Assembly: GCF_029589435.1 (NCBI RefSeq)
Contig: NZ_JARRAG010000002.1
Location: forward strand, 4,278,001-4,342,000
Direction of reading: 5' to 3'
Source: Paludisphaera mucosa
Lineage (GTDB): Bacteria; Planctomycetota; Planctomycetia; Isosphaerales; Isosphaeraceae
DNA: 64,000 bases
Positions 8,723 to 14,671 of the stretch are shown here, piece by piece; within the stretch, counting starts at the first letter, position 1, and every line of letters begins with the position of its first letter. The notes beneath the pieces were generated by a model. The model did no database searches and was not told the DNA's origin. It saw only the letters and a list, made by a program, of their open reading frames with translations. Both the position numbers and the translations under genes were made by a program.

Positions 8723-9442
<720 letters not shown>

Positions 9443-9488
9443 CGGCCGTCCTCGGTACTGCGACAGGTGACCCGACCCCGGGCCGGCG

Positions 9489-10706
9489 TCAGTGCGACCC
9501 CACGCGGATGGCTTCCATCGGCGCCATCCTCGCGGCCCGCCAGGCGGGGTACAGGCCCCCCAGGACGCCCGTCGCGACCGACAGGCCCAGGCCCAGCACC
9601 AGCGAGAACGGCGACACCCCCAGCCTCAGCCCGCCGCCGAGGAACTGGTTCGCCACCACCGTCCCGATCCAGGCGAGCAGGCAGCCCACGACCCCGGCGA
9701 GCAGGCCGAGGTACGCGCTCTCCAGCGTGACCAGGCCCAGCACGTTCCCCTGCGACCAGCCGTTGGTGCGAAGGACGCCGAACTCCACGAACCGCTCGGT
9801 CGTGCTCATGAGCATCGTGTTGACGATCCCCACGATGCCGACGAGCAGGGCCAGGCTCACGACCAGCATCAGGACCTTGTCCACCTGGCCCATCAGCATG
9901 CCGAAATTCGCCTGCACCTCGTTCATGCTGCGGGCGCTCACGCCCGGCTCCGAGGCCTCGATGGCCGCGCAGACGGCCTGATAGCCGGGCGGCGTCTCGG
10001 CCTCGACGTAGATGCTGGAGACGGTCTCCTTGGGCATCTTGAGGATCTTGCGGGCGGTCTCCACGTCCATGACGATGACCACGTCCAGCAGCATCGAGCC
10101 GGTCTCGTAGAGGCCGACGATCTCGCAGTCCTCGTCGCCGATCCGCAGGTGGTCGCCGACCTTGCGCGGCGAGCCCTCGGCGTTGGGGAAGTTGCGGGCG
10201 ATCTTGCGGCTGATGACGATGTTGGGCCGGCCGAGGTCGCGCTCGTCGAGGAACCGCCCCTCGCCCCGTTCCTTGAGCGCCCGGGGGAAGACCGCGCTCT
10301 TGAGGCCCTTGTGCGAGGGGATGTCCTGGCCGGAGATGACCGGCTGGTCCCAGATCGAGCCGGCCCCCTTGGTCATCAGGCCGCCGACGCTCCGCATGAG
10401 CATCCCCTGGCCCTCGACGTTGGGGGCGATCCCCCAGACCTCGGGCGCGACGGCCCGGACGCCGGGCACCTTGCGGATCTTGTCGACGACGCTCGTCGAC
10501 AGCGTGCTGGCGACGGGGCTGGGCGTGTTCTCGCGGAGGACGATCACGCCCTCGATCTGGCTCAGCGTGTCGCCGACCATGTTGCGCAGGCCGTCGGACA
10601 GGCTGAAGAGGCCCAGGACGCCCAGGATCGGGATCGAGAGGCCGATCAGGGCCAGGAGCGTCCGCATGGGACGGGTCAAAAGGTTGCGCCAGGCGAAGAC
10701 ACCCAT
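9489..10706 (-). CDS. FtsX/MacB-like ABC transporter permease
   Basis: The product is 405 residues. The N-terminal span lies near residues 13-33 (LLALIGLSIPILGVLGLFSL). A long periplasmic domain follows with the MacB-type phrase FLDERDLGRPNIVISRKIARNF. Three C-terminal spans hold the FtsX domain (residues about 275-395; LLVGIVGIVNTMLMSTTERFVEFGVLRTNG). The pattern NTMLMS and EFGVLR(T/A) is diagnostic for FtsX-like permeases. It is the partner of the downstream ATPase. It starts at ATG 10706 as the first gene of the pair. Confidence 0.92.
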   Translation of the reverse strand: MGVFAWRNLLTRPMRTLLALIGLSIPILGVLGLFSLSDGLRNMVGDTLSQIEGVIVLRENTPSPVASTLSTSVVDKIRKVPGVRAVAPEVWGIAPNVEGQGMLMRSVGGLMTKGAGSIWDQPVISGQDIPSHKGLKSAVFPRALKERGEGRFLDERDLGRPNIVISRKIARNFPNAEGSPRKVGDHLRIGDEDCEIVGLYETGSMLLDVVIVMDVETARKILKMPKETVSSIYVEAETPPGYQAVCAAIEASEPGVSARSMNEVQANFGMLMGQVDKVLMLVVSLALLVGIVGIVNTMLMSTTERFVEFGVLRTNGWSQGNVLGLVTLESAYLGLLAGVVGCLLAWIGTVVANQFLGGGLRLGVSPFSLVLGLGLSVATGVLGGLYPAWRAARMAPMEAIRVGSH

Positions 10707-11001: not shown

Positions 11002-14000
11002 TCACGTCGCGTCCGGCTCCGGGTTCGGGGCCTCGGACGGCGGGGGCGGCGAGCCTCCCGCGTCCTCGGGGTTGGGGCCGTCCTCCTCGCGCGCCTGCCA
11101 GAGCTGTTTAAGCTGGCCGAACGTGCGGAGCGGGACGCTGCCGGTGAGGGCGTCCTTGGAGAGGGGAGGGGGCGGGGGGGCGGGACGCGCCGGGCGGGGT
11201 GCGGCCGGCGGTTCGTTGCGATTGTCGGGGCGAGGGCCGCCGAACCGGCCGCCGCCGTCGCGGGTGAAGCCGCCGCCGCCGCGGGGCCTCCGCGACCCTG
11301 GCCGGGCCCGCCGCCGCCTCCCGGACGATAGCCGCCCTGCTGGGGCCGCCGCTTCCCGTGCGATAGCCGCCGCCCTGGCCTGGGGCCTGGGCCGGGCCGC
11401 TGGGGGCGGGCCCGGCGAACCGGCGCGGGCCGGCGTCGCCGCCGCCTTCCGGCCGGGCGTCGATCGGCGGGGCGCCGACCGGCGGGTTCGTGAGGTTCGA
11501 GGGGCCGGGACGCGGGCCTCGGCCGCGACGGGCCTGGCCTTCGCCGCCCTGGCCCTGCTGCTGCGGGGCCCCTTCGCCGCGACGGCCGCCGCCGCCGCCT
11601 TGGCCGGCACCGCGATGCCGCTCGGTCCCCGGCTTGACCATCGTCAGCGAGACCCGCTTGCGGTCCTGGTCGACCGACATCACCCAAACGGTGACGACGT
11701 CGCCGACGCTGACGACGTCGTGCGGGCTCTTGATGTAGCGGTTGGCGAGCTGGCTGATGTGCACCAGCCCCGAGTCCTTCAGGCCGATGTCGACGAACGC
11801 GCCGAAGTCGACGACGTTGAGCACCGTCCCCTTCAACTCCATGCCGGCCGTGAGGTCTTCGAGCTTGAGGATGCCCTTCTTGAAGATCGGCTTGGGCAGG
11901 TCGTCGCGAGGGTCGCGGTCGGGGCGGCCGAGGGCCTCGATGATGTCCTTGAGGGTCGGCTCGCCGACCTCGAGCTCCTGGGCGATCGCGGGGACGTCGG
12001 CCTCGGCGAGCCTGGCGCGGAGTTCGGGGAGCTTCTCCTTGTCGCGGACGACGTCGGGAGCCGACTCGAACTTCTCCAGCAGCCGGGACGCGGCGGCGTA
12101 GCTCTCGGGGTGGATCCAGGTGCGGTCGAGCGGCTGGGGTCCGTCGCCGATCTTGAGGAAGCCGGCGGCCTGGGTGAACGTGGCCGGCCCGACCCCCTCG
12201 ACCTCGATCAGCTCCTCGCGGTTGGCGAACGGGCCCTTCTCCTTGCGGCGGTCGGCGATCCGACGCGCGGTGAGCTGGTTCAGGCCCGAGACGTAGCGGA
12301 GCAGGGGGACGCTGGCCGTGTTGAGGTCGACGCCGACGAAATTGACGCAGCTGGCGATGACCGCATCGAGCGAGTCCTTGAGCTGCTTCGGGCTGACGTC
12401 GTGCTGGTAGAGGCCCACGCCGATGTTCTGGGGCTCGATCTTGACCAGCTCGGACAGCGGGTCCTGGAGCCGACGGCCGATCGAGATGGCGCTGCGGAGC
12501 GTGGCGTCGAACTCGGGCAGCTCCTCGCGGCCGATCGGGCTCGCCGAGTAGACGCTGGCGCCGGCCTCGTTGACGATCACGTACGCGAGCTGAGCCAGCT
12601 GGGCGTCGGCCGCGTGGGGCGCGGGGGGCGTCTGCGGCGGCGGCGGCTGGTTCCGCGACCGCGAGCCGCGGCTCTTGCCGCGGCGGCCCTGGCCCTCGCC
12701 CCGATGGCGGTCGCCCTCGTGCCGGGACGAGGTCGGGGTCGGCGTCGCGGCCGACTCGCCACCTTCGGCGGGGACGGGGACGGCCTGATGCTCGACGACC
12801 ACATCGCCCGCGGGCACCTCGGCCGGCGTCTCGCCCGCGGGGGCGTCGGCGGCGGCTTCGGGGGCGTGCGCATGGGCCTCGGCGGCCGGCGCGGCCTCGG
12901 CGACGGGCGATTCCGGGGCCTCGTGGGCGGGGGAGGGGGGCGCTTCGTGCGAGGCGTCGGCCGTGGGGTGGGCGGGATGGTTGTTCGCGCCCTCGTGGAC
13001 CTCCTCGCCGGCCTGCGTCTCGGGGCTGGTCGACTCGGGGGCGCCGCCGGAGATCGGCGGCAGCTCCTCGCTCTGGAGGTCGTGCGGGGCGGCGACGCCG
13101 TCGTCGGCCTCATCCTCGTCTTCCGCGTCGTCCGGGACGATGTAGGGGCCGGGATCCGCGGCGGGCGCCTCGGCCGTCATCGCCTCTTCCTGCAGGTCGT
13201 GCGGGTGGGCCTGATGCTCGTCGACGGCCGGGGATTCGGCCTCGGAGTACGACGTCTCGTCGACCTGCGGCGTCTCGTCGACCTGGAGCGTCTCGTCGAC
13301 TTGCGGCGTCTCCTCGGCCGGGGCCTCGTCGTCGTGTTCGGACGGGGCCTCGTCGTCGCCGGACTCGGCCGGGGCCTCGTGCTGGGGCTCGGCGACGGGC
13401 CTCGAGGCGGCGGCCGCGACGGCGGCCTCGGCGGCGGCGCGGGCCTCGGGGTTGGTGCTGAACTCGTGGCCCTCGGCGATGATCTCGGCCACCAGCTCCT
13501 CGGTCTCGCGGCAGGCGGTGCCGTTGCCGATGGCGACGACGCCGACCTGGTACTTGCCCACGAGGTCCTTGATGAAGACCTTGGCCTCCGACCGCCGGCC
13601 CTGGGGGGCGTGGGGGTAGACGATGCCCTGCTCCAAAAGGTTGCCGTTGGGGTCGAGCACCGCCACCTTGCACCCCGAGCGCAGGCCGGGGTCGATCGCC
13701 AGGACGACCTGCTTGGGGATCGGCGGCTGCAGCAGCAGGCTGCGGAGGTTGCGGGCGAAGACGTCGACGGCGTGCTTCTCGGCGGCCTCGGTCAGGTCGT
13801 GGCGGACCTCGCGCTCCATGCTCGGCAGGATCAGGCGCTCGAGCGCGTCGACCGCGGCGGCGTGGAAGGCGTCGGCCTGGGGATGGCCTTCGAGCGGGAG
13901 CTGGCCGAAGAAGGCGGATTCCAGGTCGGGCCGGGAGACCTCGAGCTTGACCTTGAGCGGCCCTTCCTTGTCCCCCCGGTTGATCGCCAGGACGCGGTGG

Positions 14001-14671
14001 GGCGGGACCTGGGCGACCGGCTCGCTGTAGTCGAAGTAGTCGCGATACTCCAGGCCCTGGCCCTCGGGGACCTCGCCCTTGGTGGTCACGAGTTTGCCGG
14101 TCTTCCACACGGCCTTGCGGACGGCCTCGCGGACGGCGGCCATCTCGCTGATGGCCTCGGCCAGGATGTGGCGGACGCCTTCGAGGGCCTTCTCGGGCGA
14201 GTCGACGCCCTTCTCGGCGTCGACGAACTCGGCCGCGGCGGCGGGCAGGTCGGTCAGCGTCTCGTCGCGGTTCCAGATCCGCGCGGCGAGCGGCTCGAGG
14301 CCGCGCTCGCGGGCCTCCGACGCCTTGGTCCGCTTCTTGGCCTTGAACGGCAGGTAAAGGTCTTCGAGCCGCTTGAGGTTCTCGGCCGAGCGGATCGCGA
14401 CGTCGAGCTCCGGCGTCAGCTTGCCCTGCTTGTCGATCGCCTTGAGGATCGTTTCCTTGCGCTCGGCGAGGTCGCGCAGCCTCTGGATCCGGACCTGGAT
14501 CTCGCGGATCACGACCTCGTTGAGGTTCCCTGTCCGCTCCTTCCGGTAGCGCGTGATGAAGGCGACGGTGTTGCCCTCGTCCAGCAAGTGGACGACGCTC
14601 TCCACCTGAACGCGCCGGATCTGCAGGTCTTGCGCGATTCGGCCCAGGTCGACCTGAATCGGGTTGTCCAT
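11002..14671 (-). CDS. tex: Tex-family S1 RNA-binding protein with large acidic insertion; 3' end frameshifted
   Basis: The N-terminal Tex domain begins MDNPIQVDLGRIAQ at ATG 14671. The YqgF/RNase H-like domain begins VVLAIDPGLRSGCKVAVLD. It is interrupted after IGNGTACRETEELVAEI by about 280 residues rich in Ala, Glu, Pro and His, then resumes with AYVIVNEAGASVYSASP and PQNIGVGLYQHDVS. Helix-hairpin-helix repeats (NLNTASVPLLRYVSGL, VEGVGPATFTQAAGFL) and an S1 domain (GMELKGTVLNVVDFGAFVDIG) follow. The tail is Gly/Arg/Pro-rich. Near 11285-11345 the reading passes through all three frames: two one-base losses in G/C runs would restore a tail ending LSKDALTGSVPLRTFGQLKQLW, with a stop at 11002. 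Without correction the frame ends at 11108. Tex proteins bind RNA and aid transcription and RNA turnover. Confidence 0.88.

Follow-up and report, generated by a model that had tools for sequence, protein, structure and literature searches.

Why should a Tex protein, the bacterial cousin of Spt6, carry hundreds of low-complexity residues in the middle of its YqgF domain? The question is posed by the tex gene of Paludisphaera mucosa, which lies in the stretch of 64,000 nucleotides analysed here (the window; positions 4,278,001 to 4,342,000 of contig NZ_JARRAG010000002.1). A sequence-only reading of the window had noticed a large insert in the YqgF domain and put its length at about 280 residues. 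The insert is indeed there, since the alignment with the Tex protein of Pseudomonas aeruginosa breaks at residue 399 and restarts at 695; its measured length is 295 residues, and the flanking sequences that had been quoted are correct. What was overlooked is the part of the insert that is conserved at the level of sequence, namely the peptide LPPISGGAP. Both the insert and a version of this motif are found in every Tex that we could read in the family Isosphaeraceae, and on balance, with a confidence slightly above even, we favour the view that the insert is a family-wide disordered tether that carries a docking motif for a protein partner.

Matches to Tex_N, Tex_central_region, Tex_YqgF, HHH_3, HHH_9 and S1 are all above the Pfam cut-offs, and this usual succession of N-terminal, central, YqgF, HhH and S1 regions assigns the protein to the Tex family. 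The contiguous YqgF domain that is usual in the family, if not required, is broken here: the match to PF16921 is split at its positions 81-83 by 295 residues, with the order otherwise kept. The alignment to P. aeruginosa Tex (PA5201; PDB 2oce, 3bzc, the structure 3bzk being of the same protein) reaches 568 bits in two pieces, of which the first covers residues 18-399; the two proteins are alike in domain order and core fold, but P. aeruginosa Tex has only 6 residues at the site. In an AlphaFold2 model built on 26 aligned sequences, the predicted local distance difference test score (pLDDT) is mostly 80-95 in the core and 65-84 in the S1 region, and below 50 for nearly all of residues 426-676. 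Helix 2 of the YqgF domain ends at residue 406 of this model, a further helix (408-422) opens the loop, and strand 5 begins at 696. A Foldseek search with the model retrieves Tex structures first and Spt6 structures thereafter, with 3bzk as the best match (E 1.5e-52, template modelling score by target 0.79). The AlphaFold2 model of a relative with an insert of only 173 residues likewise falls below 50 over residues 414-549. The earlier suggestion of an exposed, flexible loop in an otherwise well conserved protein therefore gains support from prediction as regards the loop and from comparison with five congeners as regards the rest: the Tex core is 89-95% identical to theirs, as opposed to 53-62% for the insert, within which 55-100 positions are gapped.

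Several trivial origins of the loop were considered and rejected. No Hint or intein family of Pfam is matched at E 0.001, and the insert is of low complexity and predicted disordered, which speaks against an intein. A mobile insertion is disfavoured by the absence of an uninterrupted tex from all 38 family genomes and by the insert being in frame wherever both flanks could be read. A local error of frame or assembly is contradicted by other genomes, whose inserts agree in composition, ends and motif; a frameshift does affect this tex, but further on, in the tail.

A Tex YqgF match was obtained in 38 of 39 Isosphaeraceae genomes, the exception (G039) being 89% complete, and in all 38 it is split at the same position, so that the insert is no local artefact; the Tex proteins of all of them were read, and each has the insert with a version of the motif, the weakest being that of G006. 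The 38 distinct inserts that we compared range from 173 to 419 residues, with a median of 272. A separate scan of named genomes returned 33 loci, among which the 20 Isosphaeraceae-type loci with both flanks carry 173-392 extra residues at the same site, as against 5-14 residues in the nine remaining loci with both flanks; in the last four loci at least one flank is missing. In Planctomycetota at large, the Tex YqgF domain was found in 58 of 119 sampled genomes. Fifteen of 22 distinct Tex proteins from outside Isosphaeraceae have 5-14 residues at the site, in a sample that is not random, as a split domain match was the reason for including some of its members. Among the remainder, one has 41 residues, and in two from family f3 the site is occupied by 130 and 184 Pro/Thr-rich residues; the insert of the other four (families f4, f46 and f59) lies elsewhere, in the loop between strand 3 and helix 1 of YqgF. 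The long inserts of these four families resemble those of Isosphaeraceae in being Ala/Pro/Glu- or Pro/Thr-rich and situated in YqgF, but those of f3 occupy the same loop without the motif and those of f4, f46 and f59 a different one. Both f4 inserts (L038, L076) share a motif of another kind, PP[VI]L[SP]ADS[VF]HRSTD[GD]ES.

The insert of P. mucosa Tex comprises 61 Ala, 44 Glu, 42 Pro, 22 Asp, 20 Ser, 18 Gly, 18 His and 11 Lys or Arg residues, with a net charge of -55, and it is organized similarly to its counterparts. Between the conserved entry and exit, the body of the 38 inserts has a mean charge of about -39, and the stretch from 55 to 15 residues before the insert end has a mean charge of +5.5 (range +1 to +10). 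The PQVDET units that had been singled out from the sequence alone do exist, as a tandem repeat with a unit of 18 bases (3.6 copies at 86% match), but they were seen in this genome alone, with VDET in only one of the 38 distinct inserts. A second tandem repeat has a 24-base unit in 3.2 copies. Changes of insert length and the PQVDET repeats are probably due to slippage, which does not explain the motif.

The motif, with the consensus E-x-L-P-P-I-[ST]-G-G-[AS]-P-[DE], is the longest conserved run away from the ends in the alignment of the 38 distinct inserts (P 92%, P 100%, I 84%, G 97%, G 97%); the other columns with at least 90% conservation away from the ends are four isolated Pro or Glu positions, as expected from the alignment of low-complexity sequences. 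The 38 inserts were chosen by a length above 150 and by the core P[IVL]xGG. This filter did not discard any insert from Isosphaeraceae, as all 22 sequences that it excluded belong to other families, and the motif is also present in two genomes whose Tex was read afterwards (G033 and G006). The motif thus occurs in all 38 Isosphaeraceae genomes with Tex, in G006 in the degenerate form PAPVAGGSDE, while residue shuffling of the inserts produced a loose motif pattern in 44 of 38000 cases. PP[IV][ST]GG[AS] is matched exactly by 29 of the 38 inserts, GG[AS]P by 31 and GG[AS]P[DE] by 27; the variable residue is Ser in 24, Thr in eight, Ala or Arg in two each and Val or Leu in one each, and three inserts have two copies. 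The entropy of codon usage is 1.59 (a value that includes two Ala codons) and 1.09 for the two motif prolines, compared to a background of 1.66 for Pro, and 1.42 and 1.81 for the two glycines, compared to 1.79. Although one proline is clearly below the background, codon choice in the motif is mostly as varied as in the rest of the insert, which indicates conservation at the protein level. As a short conserved peptide amid divergent sequence that is predicted disordered, it has this hallmark of a short linear docking motif.

A profile of 22 positions around the motif, in which the Tex sequence of the window is included, was used to search for the motif in other proteins. In the P. mucosa genome it finds Tex (E 1.9e-7) and a 195-residue frame on a 15.5-kb contig, C9 (E 1.3e-4), followed by a STAS-FHA protein (E 0.47), a paralogue of the C9 protein on contig C8 (1.37) and a seemingly out-of-frame match (3.17). 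Among the 39 genomes, 37 have a match at E 0.1 or better, with Tex always first, and nothing was found at this threshold in G006 and G039; twelve matches are outside Tex, compared to about four expected from the E-value. The best match among solved structures had E 3.7, i.e. the matches there were weak only.

The second protein with a similar motif has the architecture STAS-FHA-STAS (L111 in P. mucosa, at C2:3473410; L117, L119 and L157-L165 elsewhere) and presents PP[IL]xGG[ASG]P in its first linker, between the first STAS domain and FHA. The orthologues were collected by similarity of the whole protein (30 loci returned, 26 analysed and 23 kept, with three below 150 bits dropped). In genera g1, g5, g7 and g25 the motif is present in ten of 11 orthologues, within linkers that are otherwise divergent, and shuffling of these 11 linkers produced 90 matches in 110000. 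This linker is a more independent test of the recurrence of the motif than are the five small proteins that also contain it (L123 on C9, L112/L124 on C8, L118, L125 in G036 and L211). The latter form two groups that are not clearly similar beyond the motif region, one represented by MPPVSGGAPDDE, VPPVAGGSPIAD and LSPIAGGAPDDH and the other by IPPPISGGSPEAEE and LPPIAGGSPGADD. Genes of plasmid or phage type adjoin the three of the five whose surroundings were examined: the plasmid- or phage-like contig C9 encodes a phage-type primase and ParA, contig C8 a ParB-like/topoisomerase-type protein and a weak match to replication initiators, and L125 stands beside a DNA methyltransferase that has relatives in phages. 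For three of the small proteins, IMG/VR was searched for relatives, and for one of these three also PLSDB; none was found. The DNA pattern of the motif occurs on 8 IMG/VR contigs, which by rough arithmetic is about the chance number, and we attach no weight to it; four proteins from IMG/VR (L258, L259, L260 and L262) start with or contain APPVAGGAPEY or LPPIAGGAP[DE], two of them being capsid-like by eye, on a number of contigs that again looks like chance.

The anatomy of the loop, with disordered arms of free length, one conserved peptide and fixed ends, leads us to regard it as a tether with a docking motif. We envisage that two acidic Ala/Glu/Pro arms, unconstrained in length and sequence, would hold the motif away from the nucleic-acid-binding core, and that the basic patch and the Pro/His exit would fix the loop beside strand 5. 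A partner protein that reads the motif would then be brought to Tex and to the transcription machinery, and the same partner or a related receptor would probably read the motif in the STAS-FHA-STAS linker as well. An excerpt of PMC13340108, citing earlier work, states that Tex copurifies with RNA polymerase and binds RNA and DNA, from which we infer that a docked partner would reach transcription.

Several observations weigh against this proposal. The two structural models place the motif without confidence, and a binding partner is neither known nor predicted; by the same criterion of model confidence alone, we also rejected the idea that the motif folds back on Tex itself. Twelve more distant STAS-FHA orthologues all lack the motif, and the match to this protein in P. 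mucosa is weak when taken alone. As the motif was the means by which the small proteins were found, their sharing it is in part a consequence of the search. Finally, the family shows no enrichment of a relaxed DNA pattern, with 113 matches in the 39 genomes compared to 117 for the reversed control, for which reason the motif is not regarded as a general feature of the proteome. After Tex, the STAS-FHA protein and the element proteins had been set aside, 73 places with the pattern were left, nine of them in a probable coding frame according to the rule of G+C content by codon position; by eye, several of the nine seem to lie upstream of a start or where a gene ends. L211 is among the nine, as is the tail of a MoaD-type protein (L255).

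The most serious competitor of the docking tether, if an unlikely one, is neutral expansion, in which slippage in GC-rich repeats built a low-complexity loop that is tolerated and has no specific role. The tandem repeats in the insert, the wide range of its length, its low identity and many gaps within the genus, and the occurrence of long inserts in other planctomycete families, in two different loops, are all as neutral growth would have it. However, it accounts neither for the motif, which all 38 genomes retain with varied codons, nor for the conserved exit and basic patch, nor for the fact that none of the 38 genomes has lost the insert. It is also conceivable, but very improbable, that the acidic loop serves as an electrostatic shield, or as an intramolecular competitor of nucleic acids that covers the S1/HhH surface when RNA is absent; the strongly negative charge of the inserts would suit such a role, as would the binding of RNA and DNA reported in the excerpt mentioned above (PMC13340108), yet the conserved PP-I-x-GG motif is uncharged and left unexplained, and neither model places the loop on the core with confidence. 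The sequence-only reading had offered two functions for the loop, tethering of RNA-associated partners and condensation. To the latter we give hardly any credence: a long acidic low-complexity sequence with a basic patch in an S1-domain protein could act in this way, but what is conserved is one specific motif, not a composition or a pattern of stickers. Our findings favour a tether over condensation, because a purely compositional driver would not need a conserved specific motif. The idea of tethering is therefore retained, with the reservation that the partner need not be associated with RNA.

The motif can be compared with the C-terminal tail of the ubiquitin-like sulphur carriers of MoaD type. 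MoaD homologues in the PDB end with FPPVTGG and IPPISGG, and tails of the type PPVTGG, PPVSGG or PPISGG are nearly identical to LPPISGG of Tex. In Isosphaeraceae, proteins of this type continue past the Gly-Gly, as does the Tex motif (GG-AP or GG-SP): a ThiS-family protein of G047 ends with IPPVSGG-SPGSQQTS, and frames in G034 and G035 that combine NTP-transferase and ThiS domains (tested in G035) end with IPPVSGG-SDEA. These are the three hits L255, L092 and L106, with a Pfam ThiS match in both of those tested, L092 and L255. In L092 a single frame has a MobA-like NTP-transferase domain ahead of ThiS, and L106 looks alike. The Tex motif differs from these tails in being internal, within a disordered loop and without a ThiS/MoaD domain. 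No ThiS match was found in Tex at E 0.001, and the sequence ahead of the motif is predicted disordered, at variance with a beta-grasp fold. The MoaD fold itself is part of what MoaD-handling enzymes recognize, and a likeness of six or seven residues can be due to chance. On the other hand, excerpts of two reports provide precedents, in the MoaD context, for cleavage of such a site: MoaX is cut between Gly82 and Ser83 (PMC4326299), and a bacterial JAMM peptidase cuts a MoaD-MoaE fusion (PMC8832034). The motif might thus imitate a MoaD tail and be bound, or cut after the Gly-Gly, by a JAMM/MPN+ peptidase, a MoeB-type E1 or MoaE, and a cut in the loop could switch Tex; we consider this rather improbable. 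In a still bolder and somewhat less probable version, LPP[IV][ST]GG[AS]P would be a regulatory tag specific to this lineage that descends from the MoaD tail or mimics it. It would be presented to one MoaD-handling enzyme (a JAMM peptidase or an E1), for docking or for cutting after Gly-Gly, by Tex, by the STAS-FHA protein and by the small proteins from plasmid- or phage-like elements. If that were true, a MoaD-like tag would join transcription, signalling and mobile elements via a bacterial ubiquitin-like machinery.

The coordinates of the features are collected in the table. The reading frame of tex is shifted with respect to its relatives from about residue 1110 onward, which does not affect the insert. 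The shift lies at about 11285-11345 on the minus strand, within G+C-rich repeats, where it apparently occurs twice, and it may be a sequencing error or a real change; in G001, from the same genus, the tail also looks out of frame. The Gly/Pro-rich tail of Isosphaeraceae Tex is closed by a conserved C-terminal peptide, PLSKDAL-x-G-x-VPLR[ST]FGQLKQLW, for which Tex is the sole strong match in the P. mucosa genome (E 8e-19; the next is 0.55), and abbreviated forms such as GFDQLKALW terminate Tex in families that lack the insert (among L022, L023, L034, L037 and L038). Downstream of tex there is an open reading frame that by eye is transporter-like (9489-10706), and then another at about 8725-9625; they are found beside tex in 14 and 12 of 24 other loci, respectively, several loci being too short to show them. 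These conserved neighbours were considered as a hint of the partner and dropped, as they have no link to the motif.

Features of the tex locus of P. mucosa (positions in the window)
Feature	Positions	Strand	Remarks
tex open reading frame as read in the window	11108..14671	-	1187 residues; start codon at 14671; last ~75 residues shifted in frame compared with relatives
YqgF domain, first part (beta1 to helix 2), residues 321-402	13466..13711	-	PF16921 positions 1-81
Insert, residues 400-694, between YqgF helix 2 and strand 5	12590..13474	-	alignment and model
Conserved entry EGxxF (here EGHEF)	13460..13474	-	E 100%, G 97%, F 100% of 38 distinct sequences
PQVDET/LQVDET/PQVDET tandem repeat, in the first acidic arm	13253..13306	-	VDET in no other of the 38 distinct inserts
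Conserved short motif LPPISGGAPE, residues 537-546	13034..13063	-	insert alignment
Basic patch RHEGDRHRGEGQGRRGKSRGSRSRN, residues 650-674	12650..12724	-	charge profile of 38 sequences
Conserved exit PPAPHAADAQLAQ, running into strand 5	12590..12628	-	PPxPHxAD in 37/38
YqgF domain, last part (strand 5 onward), residues 695-740	12452..12589	-	PF16921 positions 83-126
S1 RNA-binding domain, residues 941-1011	11639..11851	-	PF00575
Conserved C-terminal Tex tail LSKDALTGSVPLRTFGQLKQLWQAR, in another frame	11089..11163	-	stop at 11002

Disordered regions with docking motifs are known from eukaryotic Spt6, and we know of no description of such a region inside a bacterial Tex. A search of the open-licence part of PubMed Central found no paper on an insertion in the YqgF domain of Tex in Planctomycetes or on Tex in Isosphaeraceae. 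According to an excerpt of PMC13289920, metazoan SPT6 has an insertion domain in S1, which, similarly to the insert of Isosphaeraceae Tex, is a lineage-wide addition to a nucleic-acid-type domain of the Tex/Spt6 family; in contrast to it, the Tex insert is long and disordered and has a peptide motif. The site between helix 2 and strand 5 has a parallel in the RNase H-like exonuclease domains of type B DNA polymerases, where an excerpt of PMC3985635 describes an insertion at the same topological position that forms beta strands, as opposed to the disorder predicted for Tex. The presence of long, disordered-looking sequences in the Tex YqgF domain of several planctomycete families, partly in another loop, hints that a Tex tether has been selected for more than once in this phylum. 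If the motif does recruit a partner, the motif peptide would provide a direct handle on the function of Tex, which is still poorly known.
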